From the NCBI GenBank assembly GCA_001275005.1, contig JWZX01000750.1, positions 1 to 20,832 of the forward strand: a stretch of 20,832 nt of DNA. The letters are read 5' to 3'. Under the pieces are notes generated by a model that saw only the letters and a list, made by a program, of their open reading frames with translations, was not told the DNA's origin and searched no databases. This DNA is from Chrysochromulina tobinii (taxonomy: Eukaryota > Haptophyta > Prymnesiales > Chrysochromulinaceae). Positions 5,610 through 17,570 of the stretch are shown in pieces; positions within the stretch are counted from its first letter, which is position 1; each line of letters opens with the position of its first letter. Made by a program: the position numbers and the translations under genes.

Positions 5610-5818
5610 TCTTCAACTCAGTAGAGGTCCCGAAGCGAATAGCGCTTTCATGTATCTTTGACACCCAGAGTGTCTTTCTTTTGAGTAGGATCCTTGTTGA
5701 CAAAGAAGTCACACAGACACATATTCACATTCACACGTGTGGCGTTCGTGTGGATGCGTTGGTGACGTGGCCGCGCTCGAGAGACGCTCGATAATTTCCG
5801 CGAGCGCTTCGCTCGAGA
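5610..5818 (+). promoter_or_regulatory. Intergenic region between B and C, likely promoter of gene C
   Basis: A 209-base spacer. It holds the CACATTC-type word shared with gene A (5723-5736) and a CACGTG core in CACACGTGTGG (5731-5741). No TATA box stands out. Confidence 0.35.
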
Positions 5819-6814
5819 ATGTCCGAAGAGGCAGGACTCGCCTTCCTTGAAGAGAACAAGGCCAAGGAGGGCGTGATCACTCTCCCGTCTGGGCTCCAGT
5901 ACAAGGTGCTGGTCGAGGGCGGCGGTGTGGAGCATCCGACGGTCAGCTCTCCGTGTGAGTGCCACTATGCGGGACGGCTCCTCGACGGCACAGAGTTCGA
6001 CTCGTCGTACAAGCGAGGCCAGCCGACCACCTTCGCGCCCAACCAAGTCATCAAGGGCTGGACTGAGGCCATGCAGCTCATGGTGCAGGGTGACAAGTGG
6101 GAGATGTACATCCCATATCAGCTCGCATACGGTGCAGCCGGCAAGCCGCCCAAGATCCCGGCCAAGGCGATGCTCATCTTTGTGATGGAGATCGTCAAGA
6201 TCAAGGGCGACACCGTGCCGCGGAAGCTGCCGTACCCGGAGTGGACGGAGGCGGAGCTCGCGCTCTGGCTGGACAAGGACGAGGCGGCGTGCACGACTTG
6301 GCGCGAGGGGCGGCTTCAAAAGTGGGAGGCGGGCGACGAGAAGTTGAAGAGCTCGTACCCGACGCGTGAGGCGCTCGACGCCTGGCTTGACGGCCAGTGC
6401 CTCAACTCGCGCAACAAGAGCCTGTGGAAGCGCACCCGAGCCGCCAAGAAGATGGCGGAGGCGCCGACCCCTCCGCCCGCCGCGCCCGCGATGACGCCGA
6501 AGTTTGCGCGCACGCTGCTGGACCAGGCGCTCGCGGCCTTCACGGTGCCCGAGAACAAGTCGAAGCTGACGGCCATCGTCGCAGAGTGCGAGGCGGCGCC
6601 GCCCGAGTCGCAGATGATGATGCGCATGTCGAAGATCATGCCAGCCGTACAGGAGATGATGACGAAGCCGCTCGAAGAGGCCGGCTTCCGAGCGGACGAC
6701 TTGATGAGTGTGATGATGCAGATCCGCTCCTTCGAGGCGCAGGACCCCTCGATCGCTGCTGACTGCGCCAAGCTGACGAAGGCGGTCATGGGCGACCTCT
6801 CCGACTTTGCGTGA
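5819..6814 (+). CDS. FKBP-type peptidyl-prolyl cis-trans isomerase with a novel C-terminal extension
   Basis: A 331-residue intronless protein. The N-terminal stretch (GLAFLEENKAKEGVITLPSG, 6-25) is like the Mip/FklB lead-in to the FKBP fold. The FKBP domain (about 26-128) keeps the expected pocket residues: Y50, F60, D61, V77-I78, W81, Y104 (LAYG) and F121. It should catalyse proline isomerisation and may bind FK506-type ligands. Residues 135-331 match no family I know: a Trp-rich part (EWTEAELALWLDKDEAACTT from 141, RLQKWE), a basic stretch near 220, a Pro/Ala linker, then a Met-rich helical segment (QMMMRMSKIMPAVQEMMTK). No signal or transit peptide is evident, so it is probably cytosolic or nuclear. 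The ATG follows an in-frame stop closely, so the start is secure. Confidence 0.93.
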   Translation: MSEEAGLAFLEENKAKEGVITLPSGLQYKVLVEGGGVEHPTVSSPCECHYAGRLLDGTEFDSSYKRGQPTTFAPNQVIKGWTEAMQLMVQGDKWEMYIPYQLAYGAAGKPPKIPAKAMLIFVMEIVKIKGDTVPRKLPYPEWTEAELALWLDKDEAACTTWREGRLQKWEAGDEKLKSSYPTREALDAWLDGQCLNSRNKSLWKRTRAAKKMAEAPTPPPAAPAMTPKFARTLLDQALAAFTVPENKSKLTAIVAECEAAPPESQMMMRMSKIMPAVQEMMTKPLEEAGFRADDLMSVMMQIRSFEAQDPSIAADCAKLTKAVMGDLSDFA

Positions 6815-8224: not shown

Positions 8225-8374
8225 CAGCCCTTGGCGACTCAAACTTTGTTGATTACACTCGACATTTCTTTCCTGTGTTCGGTCCAAACTAAAGAGAAGG
8301 GCTTCCATGCCGTAGTGGAAGACTGAATTCCCTTTTTCGGCAACTTTTTCGAGCTCCCATCTCTCATCCCATCC
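8225..8374. promoter_or_regulatory. Divergent promoter region of D and E
   Basis: 150 bases separate the two start codons. The region is AT-richer than its surroundings (for example TTTGTTGATTACACTCGACATTTC). No TATA box is clear. Both genes carry Arg/Ser/Leu-rich N-termini and may serve the same organelle, but co-regulation is only inferred from position. Confidence 0.4.
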
Positions 8375-9595
8375 ATGCTCTCTTCAGCTCTCGTGGCGCG
8401 ATTGCTGGTGCTACAGCCGCCACAGCAGTGTCGATGGGCCGTGTCGATGAATGCCAAGGCTTCTCCACTCGTGCTACATGAGGGTGATGGCTGGTTGGTG
8501 GTCAACAAGCCGCGCGGAATGATTGTGCACGATGGGCCGGAAAGCTTGATTGATGCACTTGCATCGGCAGGCTACAAGGGCACGAGCCCAGTCCACCGGC
8601 TCGACGCGGAGACCTCTGGGGTGATGCTGTTCTCGCAGAATCCGCGTGGTGGAAAATCGGATATCAAGGGACTGCTCACCGCCTGCCTTGCCGATCCGCT
8701 GACGGTCAAGCAGTACGTCGGCGTGATGAAAGGCGACCTGGTAGGCAGCGGCACGTGGGACCAGACGATTAGCCCAAAGGCCGAGGGCCGGAAGAATCCA
8801 CGTGGCGTCTCGGCAGTGCGTGTGTCGGCCGAGACCGATTATGTCGCACTCGGGCTGCACAGCCATCTGAGCGTTGCGAGCTTCGTGCTTCGTACTGGGC
8901 GCACGCATCAGATCCGGAAGCACGCCGCTTGCAACGGGTTCCCGATTGTGGGCGATGCACGGTACGGCGACCCGAAACACGACGAGAAGGTGTGCGAGCG
9001 GTGCGCGTTCGAGGGCATGGCGCTGCACGCCTCGCGCCTCCACATCACCATCGAGGGCACCACGCACGACTTTGTGGCACCAGTGCCGTCCGAATGGAAT
9101 GGACTCCTTTCCCAATTTGGGTCGTTGGCACTGCCGGCGGTCGGCGACGCCCTCCCACAGCCGGCGCCACGCAGCGCCAAGGCTCGTGGCAGCGCTGGGG
9201 CCAAGCCTGGCGGGCTCCGCCAGTCGGGCGAAGTCGCGACTTGGAATCGCGTCAAGGGCTATGGCTTCATCAAGCGCGAAGGTAAGGGCCTCGACAACAT
9301 CTACGTGCACCAGAGGAGCATTAAAGGTGTTGCGGGCTTCCGATCACTTCTCGAGGGCGAGTCGGTCCAGTTCGATGTGGGCACGATGGCCGACGGGAAG
9401 CTCGAGGCGTTACACGTCACTGGCCCCGGAGGCCGGCCTGTCATCGGCCTGCCGCCAAGGACAGAGGAGGAGCGAAAGCCGAGCGACCCACAGCTGTCGG
9501 CGGGCCGCGGGCAGCCAAAGACGGAGAAGGTCAAGGTCGCCTATGGGTCGCTGCCGCCAGGAGCTTACGCACCGAAGAACAAAAAGGTCGCGTGA
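8375..9595 (+). CDS. RluA-family RNA pseudouridine synthase fused to a cold-shock domain
   Basis: A 406-residue intronless protein. The N-terminus (1-30, with Arg/Leu/Gln and no acids) may be a targeting peptide. The RluA domain spans about 31-240. Motif II HRLDAETSGVMLF (74-86) includes the catalytic aspartate D77; GRTHQIRKHA (175-184) and PIVGDARYGD (190-199) are the other signature blocks. A basic Ala/Gly/Pro linker (about 258-282) leads to a cold-shock domain (284-352) with both nucleic-acid-binding motifs, KGYGFIK (294-300) and NIYVHQ (309-314). The tail is charged and Pro-rich. The enzyme should convert uridine to pseudouridine in rRNA or tRNA, with the cold-shock domain as an added RNA grip. 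RluA proteins more often carry an S4 or no extra domain, so the fusion is unusual. CERC at 207-210 is a small insertion. Confidence 0.92.
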   Translation: MLSSALVARLLVLQPPQQCRWAVSMNAKASPLVLHEGDGWLVVNKPRGMIVHDGPESLIDALASAGYKGTSPVHRLDAETSGVMLFSQNPRGGKSDIKGLLTACLADPLTVKQYVGVMKGDLVGSGTWDQTISPKAEGRKNPRGVSAVRVSAETDYVALGLHSHLSVASFVLRTGRTHQIRKHAACNGFPIVGDARYGDPKHDEKVCERCAFEGMALHASRLHITIEGTTHDFVAPVPSEWNGLLSQFGSLALPAVGDALPQPAPRSAKARGSAGAKPGGLRQSGEVATWNRVKGYGFIKREGKGLDNIYVHQRSIKGVAGFRSLLEGESVQFDVGTMADGKLEALHVTGPGGRPVIGLPPRTEEERKPSDPQLSAGRGQPKTEKVKVAYGSLPPGAYAPKNKKVA

Positions 9596-11155: not shown

Positions 11156-12462
11156 ATGCGCTCGATCTGGAAAGGGATCCCGCACAACGAGGCTGACGCG
11201 GCCGTCGCGGCGTGGCTCTCCGCGCCCGACGGCGCGGAGAGACCACTCCCCGCGGATGCACGCGCTGCCGTCGTCGAAGAGCTCCGCCACCGCCCAAAGG
11301 CGCGTCTCTCGCACACGTTCCTGTACGATGAGCTCGGCTCGACGCTGTACGAGGAGATCTGCAAGACGCCCGAGTATTTTCTGACTGGCCACGAGGCCGC
11401 GCTCGTCAAAGCCAAGGCCGCCGACATCGCCTTCGATGCCTTCCACTCGGCAGCCGCCAATGGTGACGAGCAGGACGTGCAGGTGGTCGTCGAATTCGGC
11501 TCCGGCGACGGCCACAAAACGCTCGCGCTGCTGCGCGCGCTTCGGCCGCTCGCGCAGCACACTATCTACGCTCCGCTCGACTTGAGCGCCGAGGCGCTCC
11601 AAACGTGCGTCAGTGCGGTCAGCGCCATGGTCTCGTCCGAGCCGGGCCGTCCGCTCTCGACCATGCCACTCCATGGCAACTACGACGAGACGCTGTTCGA
11701 GGCGGCAGCGCTGCCCGGCCGCAAGCTGTACCTCTTCATGGGCTCCAACCTGGGCAACTTCACCGACGCGCAGGCCATCGCCTTCCTCCGGGGCGTCGCG
11801 CGCCACATGACCCACCGTGATCGGCTCCTCCTCGGTGTAGACACGCCAATTTCGTCCACTAAGAGCTCGAGCATGATCGAGGCGGCCTACAACGACGCGC
11901 GCGGCGTGACGGCGGCGTTCACGATCAACGCGCTGCGCCACGTCAACCGCGTCGCCGGCCTCGACTTTGACTGGCGCGACGGCTGGTGCCACGAGGCGAG
12001 GTACTCTCACGACGAGCGCGCGATCGTCACGCACCTCGTGTCTCGTCGAGAGCAGGTGAAGGCTTCGTCAGCGCCTCATGATTGCCTTGTAATTGCCTCG
12101 CCGATTGCCTCATGATTGCCTCATGATTGCCTCGTCAGTGCCTCGTCAGTGCCTCGTCAGTGCCTCGTGAGTGCCTCTGATTGCCTCTGATGGCGCGATC
12201 GTCACACACCTCTTCACACCTCCGTATCCCGAAAATGTCACAGACGGTGCGCCAGACGACGACGACGACGAGGGCAGAGGAGGAGGAGGAGGAGGAGGGC
12301 GCCGCCGGCGCGATCGTGCGCACGTACCAAGAAGGCGAGCGCATCTTCGTCGAGCAGTCGCGCAAGTTCGACGCGCCGAGCCTCGAGCGTCTTTGCCGCA
12401 GCGCCGGCCTCTTCACACGTCGCACGTGGAGCGACACCGATGGGTTCACCCTGATCAGCGAG
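11156..12462 (+). other. Domain 1: EgtD-type histidine N-alpha-trimethyltransferase (exons 1-2)
   Basis: Residues 1-373. Visible family blocks: LRHRPKARLSHTFLYDELGS (43-62), EEICKTPEYFLTGHE (66-80), SAM-binding EFGSGDGHKT (113-122), LYLFMGSNLGNF (191-202), LLLGVDTP (224-231), EAAYNDARGVTAAFTINALR (242-261) and HLVSRREQ (293-300). After the intron the frame resumes with TVRQTT, an acidic Glu run (an insert) and RTYQEGERIFVEQSRKF, the usual C-terminal lobe. The family trimethylates histidine with three SAM to give hercynine. Length is slightly above the usual 320-330 because of the Glu-rich insert. Confidence 0.9.
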
Positions 12463-15400
12463 GTGAGTGTCGTTAATTGCCTCTTGATTGCCTCTTCGCA
12501 CACACGATGGGTTCACCCTGATCAGCGAGGTGAGTGTCGTTAATTGCCTCTTGATTGCGTCTTCGCACACACGATGGGTTCACCCTGATCAGCGAGGTGA
12601 GTGACGCCCTCGACGGCGCCCTCGGCCTCGGAGTGCCACTGAGTGCATGCTGATTGCGCTTGATGGTCGTCCTCATCAGGTGGTGCCCTCGACGGCGCCC
12701 TCAGCTGGACCGAATGCGCTCTCCCGCCCACTGCGCGTCGTCGTGATCGCCTCGATGACGTCGCACACGGGCAACGCGGTCACCGCAGCACGGATCATGA
12801 GGCTCTTGCCCGCCGCCCACGTGAGCGCGCTGGACATTCACACGGTTTCGTCACGCGCCGTGTTGGCCACCCATCTCGTGGCGGGGGGATCGGGCACTCC
12901 GGCGGCGGGCCTCGTTCTCGGCGTGCATGCGTACCGGTCGGGCAAGCTGCTGCTCGGCTGCGGCGTGCCGTACATGATCGTCCTCGGCGGGACGGACGTG
13001 AACATCGATCTGCACGAGAGTGCCAAGGGAGAGGTGATTCGACGCGTCATCGCCGAGGCGGCGGCGGTCGTCGCGTTCAATGAGGAGCTCAAGACGGGGC
13101 TCCTCGCGCGGGTCCCCGAGGCGCGCTCCAAAGTGTTCCTGATTCCACAGGCGGTGGAGCTCGAACCCCCCGAGATCGTTGACGAGACCGAGGATGACGA
13201 AACGCGCTTCCGTGAGCGCCTGCGGGCTGCGCTCGACGTAACCGCCAACGAGCAGCTGCTGCTGCTGCCCGCGGGGGTGCGACCTGTGAATGATTGCTGC
13301 CCGCGGGGGTGCGACCTGTGAATGATTGCTGCCCGCTGGGGTGCGACCTGTGAATGATTGCTGCCCGCGGGGGTGCGACCTGTGAATGATTGCTGCCCGC
13401 GGGGGTGCGACCTGTGAATGATGCCCGCGGGGGTGCGACCTGTGAAGGACGTGCTCCGAGTGTCGTTAATGGCCTCTTGATTGCCTCATCAGGTGCGACC
13501 TGTGAAGGATGTCCTCTGGGCGGCCGAGGCGATCGCCCAATGGCATGCGAGCGACCCACGCATCTGTCTGCGCATCGTCGGCCCCGTGCTCGATGCCAAG
13601 TACGCGCAGGCAGTCAAGGCGACGCTCGGCATGCAAGTGCTCACCACGACGCCCTCACTCCCCACAGGTACGCGCAGGCAGTCGAGGCGGCGCTCGCGGC
13701 GCTCGCGACGGCGCCGTCCACCGCTCGGGCGGTGCGCTACGTGGGCGCGTTGCCGCGGGCACAGCTGCACGAGGCGATGAGGATGGCGGCGATGGTGATC
13801 AACACGAGCGAGAGCGAAGGGCAGTGCAACTCGCTGCTCGAGGCGATGCTCGCAGGCACGCCCATCGTGGCGCGTGCCAATCTGGGCAACACTTCACTCC
13901 TCGTCGCTCCAGGGACAGTGCACCAGCGCTACGGGCTGCTCGGCACGACGCCCGCGGAGCTCGTGAGCCAAGCCCAACGGCTGCTTGCGTCTGATTGCGG
14001 CTGATTGCGTCTGATTGCGTCTAATTGCGTCTGATGGCGTCTGATGGCGTCTGATGGCGTCTGATGGCGTCTGATGGCGTCTGATTGCGTCTGATTGCGT
14101 CCCTCATCAGGTGAGCCAAGCGCAACGGCTGCTCGCCGATGGCGATCTCGCAGCACGGCTCACACACGCCGCCAAGGCCAAGGTGAGTGTCGTTAATTGC
14201 CTCCTGATTGCCTCTTCACACACGCCGCCAAGGCCGAGGTGCAAGCCGAGATTGCGGTCGAGCTCGAGGCCGCTTGATGGCCTTTGATTGCCTCCCTTAT
14301 CAGATTGAGTGCCTCCCTCATCAGGTGAGCGACGAGCTCGAGGCCGCTTGATGGCCTCTGATGGCCTCCGATTGCCTCCCTAATTAGATTGAGTGCCTCC
14401 CTCATCAGGTGCAAGCTGAGAATTCGGTCGCGCTCGAGGGGGAGAGGTACGCGGCAGCGGCACAGCACGCGCTCGCCATCCAAGTGCTCACCACGACGCC
14501 CTCACTCCCCACAGGTACGCGGCAGCGGCACAGCACGCGCTCCAGTACGCCGGCCCTGCGCCGCGCGACACGACCTACGTAGGGCTCCATGCGCCGCCGC
14601 CAGAGGCCCTCGGGCTGCGCCTGAGCAAGGCGGGCGTCGTGGCGGGCGTCTTCGAGGCCCTCGAGGTGTACGAATCCATACGGGCGCACACGTGGCAGGC
14701 GCGTGCTTCACGCCTCCACGCCCAGCATGCATGCGCTCACCACGGCGCGCGGGCCCTTCGCGCGCTTCATGGCCCCGCCTCCTCGCCCAGCATGCAAGTG
14801 CTCACCACGGCGCCCGGGACCTTCCCCACAGGCGCGCGCTTCATGGCTGCGCGCGCAGCTCTGGACGTCGTACCGGCGCTTTCTGGCAGCGGTGCCGGCG
14901 GCGCAGCTCGCTCGATCTCCGGGGCTCTACCCGACGGACTGGTCGATTGGCCACGTCGCCTTCACCTTCGACTACCTCGTCGCCCTCCCGCTGCGCCTTC
15001 CAACGGCCGGAGTGCTCTGGCGCCCAACTCGGCGCCCGACCAAGGAGGGCGCCGCCGCCGCCCAGCTCGGCGCCCAGCACGGCCTGCCGTTGGCGGCGAT
15101 GATCCAGCAGGCGTCGAGCGCCGCCGTGGGCGCGCTCGGCGAGTGGTGGAGTGGCGGCGCCCATGACGGCGCTGAAGGTGGCGCCCACCACGGCGCCCAG
15201 GGTGGCGCCCACGACGGCGCCGGTGTGTTGGCCGACGACGGGTGTGGGGGGGAGGCGACCTTCTGCAGCGCCCACGGCGGCGCCAAGCGCGGTGGCGGCG
15301 ACTCGGATCGCGCCGTGTTGCGCACTCAGGCGTGGACGTTATACGACTCGATGCGGGTGAGCGGAGCAGAGCGCTGATGACCGCTGATGACCGCTGATGA

Positions 15401-16643
15401 CCGCTGATGACCGCTGATGACCGTTGATGACCTCCCTCATCAGGTGAGCGGAGCAGAGCGCTGGGCGCTGTGGGAAGAAGGCGAGCTCCCCGACGCGCGC
15501 CTGTACCTGCACCAGGTGCATGCGATGGCCGACACCCTTGACTTGACCTGACTTGACCTGACTTGACTTAACTTGACTACCAGGTGCATGCGATGGCCGA
15601 CACCCTTGACTTGACCTGACTTGACCTGACTTGACCTGACTTGACTTGACTTGATTTGACTTGACTACCAGGTGCATGCGATGGCCGACACCCTCATCAG
15701 CGACTGCATCGGCGGCGTCTCCACGGGCCAGCCCGGTGCTTGCAACGGCGCTCACGACGGCGCGGCGGCAGAGGGCACGAAGGTAGCACTGCTGCCTCCG
15801 TGCGTCTCGTACCTTCTCTTGTACTCGATCGTACACACGCTCTGGCACACTGAAGAGCTCATCCACGCGCGCAACCTGCATAAGCAGCCGCCGCCGCCGC
15901 CGCCTGCCGAAGACGAGGCAGAGCCCGCGCCGCCCCCGACCCCCCCGAACCCCCGAACCCCCGAACCCCCCGACCCTGACCCCGGCGCCGACCCCGCCGC
16001 CCGCGCCTATAACGGCGCAGGACGCGCCAGCAGAGGGGAGGACCGTGCAAGATTCCCCACAGCCTCCATCTTCCGTGCCGGAGCCGCCCTGCCCGCCGCC
16101 GCCGACCCTGCCGCCGCCGCCGACAATGCCGCCGCCAACCCCGCCGCCGACAGCGGCCTTCGGGCCTTGCCAGGGCGTGGACGATGTGTGCATTCCGGGG
16201 GGCATCTTCTTCCTTGGAGCCGAACGGGATGGGCCGCCGAGCGACGCGCACCCACGCTTGATCCTCGACTGTGAAAAGTGGGCCCACACCCCTGATCTCC
16301 CGTGAGCTCCGAGATTGATCCTCGACTGTGAAATGTGGGCCCACCCCCCTGATCTCCCGTGAGCTCCTGAGCGCCTCTGATGACCGATGATGAACGCTGT
16401 GATGACCGCTAATGACCTCCCTCATCAGGTGGGCCCACCCGGTGCCCCTCGAGCCATTCCGCATCGCCAAGCACTGCGTGACCAATCGCGAGTTCGCCGC
16501 GTTTGTGCTCGCGGGCGGGTACGCAGACGAGTCGTTCTGGAGCTTCGACGGAGTGCGCTGGCTTCGTCAAGCGAAGCTGGAGCACCCGTACAAGTGGCGA
16601 CGCGTCGCTCGCGAGGACGGCGCTGGCACCAATGGAGTATGCC

Positions 16644-16674
<31 letters not shown>

Positions 16675-17570
16675 GGGCGAGGGCGACTGGCAGGCTACCC
16701 TCAGCTGCGCGCAGCTCCGCCACGCCGGTCACGGCCACGCCAGCAAGGACCCCAGCAAGGACCCAATCAAGGACCCAAGCGAGGACCCATGCTGCCGCCA
16801 ATTTCGTCTGCAGTGGTTCGACCGCATGATCCCGCTGCCGCCCTATCAGCCCGTGAGCCACATCTCGTACTACGAGGCCGAAGCGTTCTGTGCGTGGGCG
16901 GGCCGCCGACTGCCCACCGAGGCCGAGTGGGAGGCGGCGTGCTGCGGCGTCCCCACAGCTGATGACGGCCACCTCGCGCCGCATAAGGGTCGCCCGATGC
17001 CCTGGGGAGACGGACCGCCCACGACGGCGCGTGCCAACTGTGGCATGCGCCACGCCACACTGCTCGACGTTCATGAGCTGCCCGCGGGAGATTCGATCTG
17101 GGGGGTGCGCCAGATGCTCGGCAACGTGTGGGAATGGACCTCGACACAGTTCTACCCGTACCCAGGCTACGTAATGGACTTTCCGTACGTGACTGAGTGC
17201 CACTGAGCGCGTCTGATCGCCTCTGATTGCCGCTGATGGACTTTCCGTACGCGACTGAGTGCCTACTGAGTGCCACCGAGAGTGCCACTGAGTGCCACAG
17301 AGCGCGTCTGATCGCCACTGATTGCCACTGATTGCCACTGAGTGCCGCTGAGTACCACTGAGTGCCTCTGATCGCCACTGAGTGCCGCTGATCGCCGCTG
17401 AGTGCCACAGGTACCGCGAGCAGTCGGCACCGCACTTTGGCGGGTCGCGGGTCGCGCGAGGCGGCTGTTTCGCGACGCCCGACCTCATCGTGCGCGGCGA
17501 GTACCGCTCCTTCTACCACCCGACCAACCGACCGGAACTCGCCATTGGCTTCCGCACGTGCGCGCTCTGA
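11156..17570 (+). CDS. EgtD - SenB/GLT1D1-like glycosyltransferase - EgtB/SenA trifunctional fusion (gene H)
   Basis: Thirteen exons: 11156-12055, 12244-12462, 12680-13276, 13493-13599, 13668-13962, 14111-14182, 14409-14446, 14515-14698, 14832-15356, 15444-15515, 15672-16277, 16429-17184, 17411-17570. They total 4531 bases; with one base removed for an apparent slip in a C run (near 15940-15970) this is 1510 codons. Every junction restores a conserved motif in frame. Order: histidine trimethyltransferase (1-373), GT4-like glycosyltransferase (about 390-735), DinB three-His iron-site domain (about 800-1110), Pro-rich linker, FGE-like domain (about 1160-1509). EgtD makes hercynine; EgtB (fungal Egt1) adds sulfur, whereas bacterial SenB and SenA make a selenosugar and join it to hercynine. 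The middle transferase favours a selenoneine-type product; ergothioneine or a glycosylated derivative are alternatives. Probably cytosolic; no targeting signal is clear. Start is the first ATG in frame. Confidence 0.85.
12056..12243 (+). other. Intron 1 of gene H, 11-bp array type
   Basis: Donor CAG|GTGAAG, acceptor ATGTCACAG, 188 bases, phase 0. The body is an array of about 11-base units (ATTGCCTCATG changing to AGTGCCTCGTC). Near the 3' end a copy of the upstream exon (GCGCGATCGTCAC, 12193-12205, like 12019-12031) precedes the acceptor. This is the one clear case of upstream, not downstream, exon copying. A second in-phase acceptor exists at 12255. Confidence 0.75.
12439..12603 (+). repeat. 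67-bp tandem repeat of exon end plus donor
   Basis: The end of exon 2 with its donor (GATGGGTTCACCCTGATCAG, then CGAGGTGAGTG) is present at 12439, 12506 and 12573. Copies 1 and 2 also include GTCGTTAATTGCCTCTTGATT. There are thus three donors (12463, 12530, 12597). Only the first keeps the frame when joined to 12680. Confidence 0.9.
12463..12679 (+). other. Intron 2 of gene H, nested
   Basis: Donor GAG|GTGAGT, acceptor CCTCATCAG, 217 bases, phase 0. After the 67-bp repeats, the last donor copy is followed by a copy of the next exon (GCCCTCGACGGCGCCCTC at 12605-12622, identical to 12685-12702). Its inner part thus shows the exon-copy architecture as well. It separates the methyltransferase from the glycosyltransferase. 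Confidence 0.8.
13277..13440 (+). repeat. 32-bp tandem array carrying the donor site
   Basis: Period 32 (five starts exactly 32 apart, then one of 28). Each unit holds GTGCGACCTGTGAATGATTG followed by CTGCCCGCGGGG, i.e. donor, exon-start copy and a copy of the upstream exon end (CTGCCCGCGGG). The array is thus a serial duplication of the exon-exon junction itself. Confidence 0.92.
13277..13492 (+). other. Intron 3 of gene H with a repeated donor
   Basis: Donor GGG|GTGCGACC, acceptor GCCTCATCAG, 216 bases, phase 0. The exon start GTGCGACCTGTGAA occurs six times inside the intron (13277, 13309, 13341, 13373, 13405, 13433) and once as the true exon (13493). The last copy is followed by GTCGTTAATGGCCTCTTGATT as in introns 2 and 6. 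Removing it creates the conserved LPAG-VRPVKD block of the glycosyltransferase. Confidence 0.9.
13600..13667 (+). other. Intron 4 of gene H with introner cassette
   Basis: Donor CCAA|GTACGC, acceptor CCCCACAG, 68 bases, phase 2. The first 16 bases (GTACGCGCAGGCAGTC) are identical to the next exon (13668-13683), and similarity continues to about 29 bases with three changes. Cassette at 13630-13667. Confidence 0.92.
13630..13667 (+). mobile_element. Introner cassette copy in gene H
   Basis: CATGCAAGTGCTCACCACG, then ACGCCCTCACTCCCCACAG. It shares the subfamily changes (ACGACGCC, CTCACTCCCC) with the copy at 14477-14514, so these two are each other's closest relatives here and one likely gave rise to the other. 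Confidence 0.75.
13963..14110 (+). other. Intron 5 of gene H, 10-bp array type
   Basis: Donor CTC|GTGAGC, acceptor CCCTCATCAG, 148 bases, phase 0. The first 23 bases match the next exon with one change (GTGAGCCAAGCSCAACGGCT, then GCT). The body is the exact 10-bp array at 13991-14100. Confidence 0.92.
13991..14100 (+). repeat. 10-bp tandem array of branch-site-like units
   Basis: Eleven contiguous 10-base units, CTGATTGCGT or CTGATGGCGT, with one CTAATTGCGT and one CTGATTGCGG. Each begins with CTRAT, a branch-point consensus. Confidence 0.95.
14183..14408 (+). other. Intron 6 of gene H, nested
   Basis: Donor AAG|GTGAGT, acceptor CCTCATCAG, 226 bases, phase 0. Inside are a copy of the upstream exon end (CACACACGCCGCCAAGGCC, 14217-14235), a copy of the downstream exon start (GTGCAAGCCGAG from 14239), two copies of CGAGCTCGAGGCCGCTTGAT (14258, 14333) and an internal acceptor/donor junction CCTCATCAG|GTGAGC at 14324/14325. 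Confidence 0.8.
14447..14514 (+). other. Intron 7 of gene H with introner cassette
   Basis: Donor GAGAG|GTACGC, acceptor CCCCACAG, 68 bases, phase 2. The first 28 bases are identical to the first 28 of the next exon (14515-14542; GTACGCGGCAGCGGCACAGC and on). It is the longest perfect exon copy in the window and so probably the youngest. Cassette at 14477-14514. The preceding exon is only 38 bases. Confidence 0.93.
14699..14831 (+). other. Intron 8 of gene H, GC-AG type with two cassettes
   Basis: Only the boundary CAG|GCGCGT ... CCCCACAG| keeps the frame (TWQ then ARASWLRAQLW). The exon copy at the 5' end, GCGCGTGCTTCA, matches GCGCGCGCTTCA at 14832 and therefore supplies GC, not GT. Cassette cores start at 14726 and 14791. 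Between them lies a third copy of the exon start (CGCGCTTCATGG, 14761-14772). Confidence 0.75.
15357..15443 (+). other. Intron 9 of gene H, 10-bp array type
   Basis: Donor CGG|GTGAGC, acceptor CCTCATCAG, 87 bases, phase 0. The first 20 bases (GTGAGCGGAGCAGAGCGCTG) are identical to the next exon (15444-15463). The body is six 10-base units of CCGCTGATGA (15371-15430). Confidence 0.95.
15516..15671 (+). other. Intron 10 of gene H, double unit with a recursive AG|GT
   Basis: Donor CAG|GTGCAT, acceptor TTGACTACCAG, 156 bases, phase 0. The exon start GTGCATGCGATGGCCGACAC (then CCT) occurs at 15516, 15584 and 15672. Two arrays of 10-base units (ACTTGACCTG) fill 15537-15580 and 15605-15668, each ending TTGACTACCAG. 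The junction at 15583/15584 is acceptor and donor at once. Confidence 0.93.
15940..15970 (+). other. Apparent frameshift in a C-rich run (exon 11 of gene H)
   Basis: The DinB part reads in frame 3 up to the Pro-rich linker, and the FGE part reads in frame 1 from it. Downstream of about 15970, frame 1 gives a natural linker (TPAPTPPPAPITAQDAPAEG). No GT donor exists between about 15840 and 16040, so an ordinary intron is unlikely. The run of CCCCCCC/CCCCCGAA units is prone to sequencing or assembly error; one surplus base would explain it. Confidence 0.6.
16278..16428 (+). other. Intron 11 of gene H, array type with repeated upstream end
   Basis: Donor GAAAA|GTGGGC, acceptor CCTCATCAG, 151 bases, phase 2. 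It begins with a copy of the next exon (GTGGGCCCAC). A duplicated block (TTGATCCTCGACTGTGAAAW, then GTGGGCCCAC, at 16258 and 16315) repeats the exon end and donor. Units of GATGACCGMT follow before the acceptor. Confidence 0.85.
17185..17410 (+). other. Intron 12 of gene H, ACTGAGTGCC array type
   Basis: Donor TCC|GTACGT, acceptor GTGCCACAG, 226 bases, phase 2. Units such as ACTGAGTGCC and CTGATYGCC at about 10-base spacing fill it. A copy of the exon end with donor (ATGGACTTTCCGTAC) recurs at 17236-17250. Splicing creates MDFPYREQS, a conserved block of the EgtB/SenA C-terminus. Confidence 0.85.

Follow-up and report, generated by a model that had tools for sequence, protein, structure and literature searches.

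In bacteria, the selenium antioxidant selenoneine is made through the SenC(SelD)-SenB-SenA pathway, in which the genes are separate; the SenA route has been described with a selenoxide that collapses without needing a lyase (PMC10702425). Fusions of EgtD, DinB and FGE domains in a single chain, as in Egt1, are described for fungi, plants and green algae (PMC13358676, PMC4659905), and the sulfatase-modifying factor (SUMF) sequence of Ostreococcus tauri is mentioned as carrying an incomplete transferase domain of the family PF00534 (PMC4659905). Here we describe a gene at positions 11156-17570 (plus strand) of a 20,832-nucleotide contig of Chrysochromulina tobinii (JWZX01000750.1, analysed at full length and called the window below), which encodes, in this order and on one strand, a histidine N-alpha-methyltransferase (EgtD, part 1), a GT4 glycosyltransferase (part 2) and an EgtB-type DinB/FGE enzyme that leans to SenA (part 3).

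How does this locus compare with the described systems? It shares with the bacterial pathway the kinds of step, a third part that is nearest to SenA among the NCBIfam models and most residues of the SenB site; it differs in that EgtD belongs to the chain, its transferase falls in a GT4 group other than that of SenB and the host is a eukaryote. The order EgtD, DinB, FGE in one chain recalls Egt1, but in the alga EgtD and DinB are separated by a GT4 domain about 400 residues long, so that the direct EgtD-DinB-FGE succession is absent, and part 3 leans to SenA; Egt1 is set apart here by description, as the comparison rows were without Egt1 sequences. The O. tauri protein, likewise known by description, also comes from an alga and combines an FGE domain with a fragment of a transferase that belongs to the Pfam family of part 2, but it is reported as a sulfatase-modifying factor and its transferase domain is incomplete. 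Among the matches listed in a subject search of the open literature, we found no EgtD-transferase-SenA fusion and no haptophyte selenoneine genes, although the literature covered did not include the founding papers on selenoneine and ovoselenol, and an earlier mention is possible. The EgtD-DinB-FGE fusion is thus already known; a complete chain of EgtD, GT4 and SenA-like domains was not met with in the literature that we searched.

How might such a chain work? On balance, we favour, with reserve, the reading that one chain carries histidine to selenoneine, the selenosugar being made by a transferase other than SenB. The EgtD domain would add three methyl groups to histidine and so yield hercynine; the GT4 domain in the middle would combine selenophosphate, provided by a separate SelD-type protein, with a UDP-sugar to give a selenosugar; and the SenA-like iron domain would use oxygen to join the selenosugar and hercynine in a coupled selenoxide, which would break down to selenoneine without a lyase. 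The individual reactions and the selenium donor are read from the kinship of the domains and from the residues that they keep. A transferase from another GT4 group might do the work of SenB because both inherited an ancient site, or because the two converged. More doubtful is the wider proposal that selenosugar synthases have a second lineage, distinct from SenB, within the GLT1D1/GPMC-type GT4 family, and that marine algae have fixed it between EgtD and a SenA-like enzyme.

Gene architecture and the EgtD domain

The spliced model comprises 13 exons and 12 introns and runs from the ATG at 11156 to a stop codon that ends at 17570. Part 1 (residues 1-373; 11156-12462) is encoded by exons 1-2 (11156-12055 and 12244-12462), part 2 (residues 374-804; 12680-14698) by exons 3-8 (12680-13276, 13493-13599, 13668-13962, 14111-14182, 14409-14446 and 14515-14698) and part 3 (14832-17570) by exons 9-13 (14832-15356, 15444-15515, 15672-16277, 16429-17184 and 17411-17570, with the stop at 17568-17570). 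A preliminary description of this DNA had proposed this single-gene architecture, and the place, strand and order of the parts agree with it, as do the catalytic motifs, which are present in the EgtD, transferase (TGNAVTA, HAYRSG, GGTDVN, RPVK, E-X7-E) and DinB/FGE sets alike. The E values of parts 1, 2 and 3 (1e-64, 3.5e-62 and 9.6e-74 in NCBIfam; 7e-74, 2e-14 and 1e-42 in Pfam) weigh against chance matches.

Part 1 matches PF10017, the histidine-specific methyltransferase domain, at 249 bits against a gathering score of 23, and it carries the EgtD catalytic motifs GSNLGNF, AYNDARGVTA and EQSRKF, the last of which aligns with the TEISAKF motif of actinobacterial EgtD. Its identity to two actinobacterial EgtD proteins is 33%. 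The score on TIGR03438, its top NCBIfam model, is 219 bits, below the cut-off of 291, which tells against the reading proposed for the chain. A genome search found no second EgtD gene, with the limit that genes split by introns may escape such a search.

Host and selenium genes

Our genome searches covered the 53-Mb assembly in 2253 contigs, of which the window is one. The genes psaA and psaB lie together on one contig of the assembly, and the top three Protein Data Bank (PDB) chains matched by psaB are about 110 bits ahead of the next chain. Two of the three, 9JJ8 and 8Z11, are from the haptophytes Emiliania huxleyi and Isochrysis galbana, according to the structural reports in which they are named (PMC13219633, PMC12716418). 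Because of these genes and matches, the host, earlier taken for an alga, is by its sequences a photosynthetic eukaryote whose nearest relatives in psaB are haptophytes.

A search for SelD, suggested by the preliminary description, gave one match in the genome, at 290-293 bits against a cut-off of 125. In locus L005 (1-2550), a SelD-type domain is fused to an NADH-dehydrogenase-like domain, a type of fusion reported as the commonest among protist SPS2 proteins (PMC4561486). Against a role of this protein as selenium donor, the SelD-type fusion also matches the model TIGR04369 ('fusion_not_SelD') at 426 bits, below the cut-off of 700. The genome further contains a tRNA-Sec with the anticodon TCA (71 bits; gathering score 47).

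In the genome search with the SenA model, no other EgtB/SenA-type gene was found, intron-split genes again possibly escaping; the remaining matches were OvoA at 152 bits and three weaker places at 78, 56 and 34 bits, two of which read from their lists of open reading frames (ORFs) as FGE-type. The OvoA gene (locus L006, 610-3567, minus strand) is one ORF that joins a 5-histidylcysteine sulfoxide synthase to a methyltransferase, both above their cut-offs, and the alga may, to judge from this gene, also make ovothiol.

The C-terminal enzyme leans to SenA

On the NCBIfam models, part 3 scored 249 bits for SenA (NF041186), 200 for EgtB and 112 for OvoA, a SenA lead of 49, and when the low-complexity inserts were cut out, these values became 292, 219 and 125, a lead of 73; on PF03781 it scored 147 bits. 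Because true EgtB proteins reach 283-354 bits on the SenA model, the level of this score is uninformative and it is the difference that counts. The SenA-minus-EgtB difference was +146 to +210 for five SenA proteins and -94 to -178 for five EgtB proteins; for the alga's own OvoA it was +13, and for a Hydrogenophaga protein encoded beside SenB, +253. The latter lies on a plasmid (locus L077, 1385-3496), where SenB adjoins a protein annotated only as a member of the SUMF1/EgtB/PvdO family; its SenA score is 418.5, against a cut-off of 420.

We compared part 3 with 15 SenA and 16 EgtB rows. The former were the annotated SenA of M. populi and 14 proteins from loci with a SenB match (that of L061 being cut off by the end of its contig and scoring under the cut-off), accepted through phmmer with the M. 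populi SenA, on which they reached 379-456 bits versus at most 254 for EgtB; the four of them that were scanned all exceeded the SenA cut-off. Eight of the EgtB rows were annotated and five were scanned. Identity of part 3 was 36.7-40.4% to the 15 SenA, 31.7-35.0% to the seven actinobacterial EgtB and 25.2-29.6% to the nine other EgtB, and in the 31-row tree it joined 14 SenA with a support of 99/99. SenA differs from every one of the 16 EgtB at 15 columns, where part 3 has the SenA letter seven times, the EgtB letter once and neither seven times; the corresponding counts were 25, 13 and 40 at the 78 columns that separate SenA from actinobacterial EgtB alone, and 12, 5 and 20 at the 37 columns that separate it from the other EgtB.

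The motifs of part 3 include IGH, HTLWH, PYREQS and the C-terminal FRTCAL. The three histidines (GH and HxxxH) are present together with letters of the SenA type (YDS, RW, EKWAHPV, GN before WEW, and FRTCA). The predicted iron ligands lie in IGHVAF (14946-14963) and VHTLWHTEE (15831-15857), which align with GH and HEDMH of SenA, and the SenA-type signature CEKWAHPV (16270-16444) is split by intron 11; at its fourth letter, all 15 SenA have W and 13 of the 16 EgtB have P. By score, tree and signature letters, part 3 thus leans to SenA over EgtB and OvoA, as had been proposed.

Several observations pull the other way. First, part 3 stays below the SenA cut-off of 420 with or without its inserts, in a range that true EgtB proteins match or exceed. 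Second, its branch in the tree is long, and approximately unbiased (AU) tests left its placement with actinobacterial EgtB (p 0.128) or with other EgtB (p 0.151) unrejected. Third, when OvoA and the Hydrogenophaga protein were added to the tree, the place of part 3 was not fixed, while EgtB closed without it (98/99).

Could the chain be a sulfur enzyme? Under this alternative, it would be an Egt1-type ergothioneine synthase that uses cysteine as donor, with the transferase as an accessory, or a thiosugar made by the transferase, and selenium would enter by chance. The surviving EgtB placements agree with it, as do the loss of T83 from the SenB site of part 2, the domain order reported for fungal and plant EGT1 (PMC13358676) and the selectivity of SenB against thiophosphate, given as just 10-20-fold (PMC10702425). 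However, the letters at the columns separating SenA from all EgtB run 7 to 1 in favour of SenA. At one further position, part 3 has G where 15 of the 16 EgtB have R and all 15 SenA have H, and we take this R of EgtB to play a role in binding gamma-Glu-Cys. The SelD-type gene and the tRNA-Sec also speak for selenium, although selenoproteins alone would account for both. We therefore regard a sulfur enzyme as unlikely, if the best placed of the alternatives to a selenoneine synthase.

The middle domain is related to but distinct from SenB

Judged from its sequence, part 2 is a complete GT4 domain. The top NCBIfam model is NF038229, a GT4 enzyme of the GPMC system, at 210 bits, followed by SenB (TIGR04348) at 70 and all others at 39 or less, whereas in the PDB sequence search the top four matches were all SenB (E 6e-7 to 1e-6), ahead of MshA at 0.08. 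The preliminary description had suggested that this domain might be SenB-like and had named GLT1D1 beside it. As a SenB orthologue part 2 was rejected, with a p-AU of 0.008 for the SenB grouping and a score of only 70 bits; the GPMC/GLT1D1-type alternative was upheld, for in our trees part 2 clusters with five actinobacterial enzymes of this type (100/100 and 100/99). The label GLT1D1 is provisional for this group, the comparison rows having contained no GLT1D1 sequence. SenB and this group, part 2 included, came out as sisters against eight other GT4 enzymes with weak support (74/65).

A function like that of SenB nevertheless stays possible, because most residues of the SenB substrate site are kept. 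This site and its key residues (N20, T23, E231 and K158) are known from structures and mutants (PMC10891094). We aligned part 2 with 19 SenB and five bacterial relatives and transferred residue numbers by motif, with the M. populi SenB as guide. Ten residues are kept in part 2, namely N20, T23, H58, R61, T85, D86, R155, K158, E231 and E239, so that all four key residues are found by this motif alignment. The acceptor-side motifs HTGNAVTA (12764-12787), GVHAYRSG (12920-12943) and GGTDVN (12986-13003) align with N20/T23, H58/R61 and T85/D86, respectively; the donor-side motif GVRPVKD (13274-13510), split by intron 3, aligns with R155/K158, and the motif ESEGQCNSLLE (13810-13842) supplies the E-X7-E pair E231/E239. 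Since T23, T85, D86, R155, K158 and the two glutamates are common to every row compared, the telling SenB-like residues are N20, found in 19 of 19 SenB and one of five bacterial relatives, and R61, found in 18 of 19 SenB (K in the remaining one) and in none of the five.

Not all features of the domain fit a selenosugar synthase. Beyond its group in the trees, it falls short of both the SenB cut-off (300) and the NF038229 cut-off (400), the latter also separating it from the GPMC-system enzymes that are otherwise its closest kin; a Streptomyces relative scored 235 on NF038229. Unlike the Sen pathway enzyme, it lacks T83, which is G as in the relatives (T in 19 of 19 SenB), and the EGGAHV motif, which reads EGQCNS (SenB rows show EGGAN for EGGAH). 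At the 46 columns that separate SenB from the relatives, part 2 has the relatives' letter 22 times, that of SenB five times and neither 19 times. Finally, no selenium gene was seen in three neighbourhoods of the bacterial relatives (one an annotated plasmid, two read by eye from ORF lists).

These points also bear on the idea that the transferase acts last, placing a sugar on ergothioneine or selenoneine as a storage or export form. An analogue is the ergothioneine-sugar step of lincomycin biosynthesis, and both the lack of SenB orthology and the great diversity of GT4 acceptors suit such a role, but the phosphate-site residues N20, H58, R61 and T85 of SenB are kept, with R61 differing from all five relatives, and we consider late glycosylation improbable.

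Reading frame and the unity of the chain

Eleven of the 12 introns have GT-AG borders; the exception is intron 8 (14699-14831), with GC-AG. The preliminary description had the parts joined in phase through the 12 introns; this is correct for all 12 exon joints, and no stop separates the parts, but it fails within exon 11, where the frame shifts by one between the DinB and FGE halves, in a proline-rich stretch with C-runs (~15,900-16,180). A possible 13th intron of 145 bases in the proline-rich linker (15918-16062, GC-AG) would mend the frame and give a protein of 1461 amino acids. Because 67 candidate introns (two GT, 65 GC) could do the same and C-runs are present, an assembly slip in the C-runs (15933-15971) is as likely as a 13th intron.

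This frame change, and in-frame ATGs inside intron 2 (12647) and intron 8 (14727 and 14769), with which separate transcripts would be compatible, are points against a single chain and would suit a damaged copy, or a row of two or three genes mistaken for a single one. Against this stand the joints in phase and the missing stops. Furthermore, the exons have no methionine between residues 241 and 398 or between 669 and 893, hence none just ahead of the end of the transferase's first strand or of the first iron ligand, and introns 4 and 7 close with a dispersed element that supplies the acceptor and has, among the matches listed, at least 42 matches on other contigs. We infer that the parts form one polypeptide in the cell and think a set of several genes quite improbable.

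In the PDB sequence search, the best matches of part 3 were to OvsA, the selenoxide synthase of the ovoselenol pathway (166-193 bits, E 9e-48), mycobacterial-type EgtB (139-163) and SenA (115-141), an order unfavourable to SenA but not decisive, because an annotated SenA gives the identical order (266, 230 and 181). That part 3 places selenium on a different ring carbon to give an ovoselenol-like product, as this top match might suggest, is very improbable, since an OvsA match is no mark of the alga when an annotated SenA shares it (the trees had no OvsA rows) and the chain starts with EgtD, the source of hercynine, which is the substrate of SenA.

Implications

If a selenoneine synthase is indeed encoded here, eukaryotes would gain a dedicated selenoneine route, marine primary producers would be a source of the selenoneine in fish and fish-eating people, and a new family of selenium-sugar enzymes would be at hand. 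Should the second lineage of selenosugar synthases be real, animal GLT1D1 would become a candidate for the missing mammalian selenosugar enzyme; we know of no function for this protein. Small compounds are stated to take up about 70% of the selenium label in Emiliania huxleyi (PMC7238072), and four of these, LMC1, 2, 4 and 5, were reported as unidentified in 2009 (PMC6254913). If relatives of the alga carry the gene, the identity of these compounds would be directly testable, with selenoneine as a candidate.

Repeat-built introns and neighbouring genes

The dispersed element ATGCAAGTGCTCACCACG...CCCCACAG has 11 matches with at most two mismatches in the window, against none expected. Its copies there lie at 13631, 14478, 14727 and 14792 and at seven sites between 2365 and 5259, and the genome search gave at least 45 matches in all among those listed. 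Within the gene, it is carried by the 68-base intron 4 (13600-13667), by intron 7 and by the end of intron 8, and it is introner-like. Other introns are made of tandem copies of exon edges with AGGT-type duplications (12463-12679, 13277-13492 and 15516-15671), one example being a 32-base unit repeated 5.9 times at 13263-13446.

Neighbouring ORFs in the window encode MOSC, FKBP, FYVE and pseudouridine synthase domains, four of the eight scanned being without a Pfam match, and they are compatible with a nuclear contig. Two of them are fusions: an FKBP isomerase and a Protein C10 domain share one ORF at 5795-6811, and a pseudouridine synthase and a cold-shock domain share another at 8327-9592.

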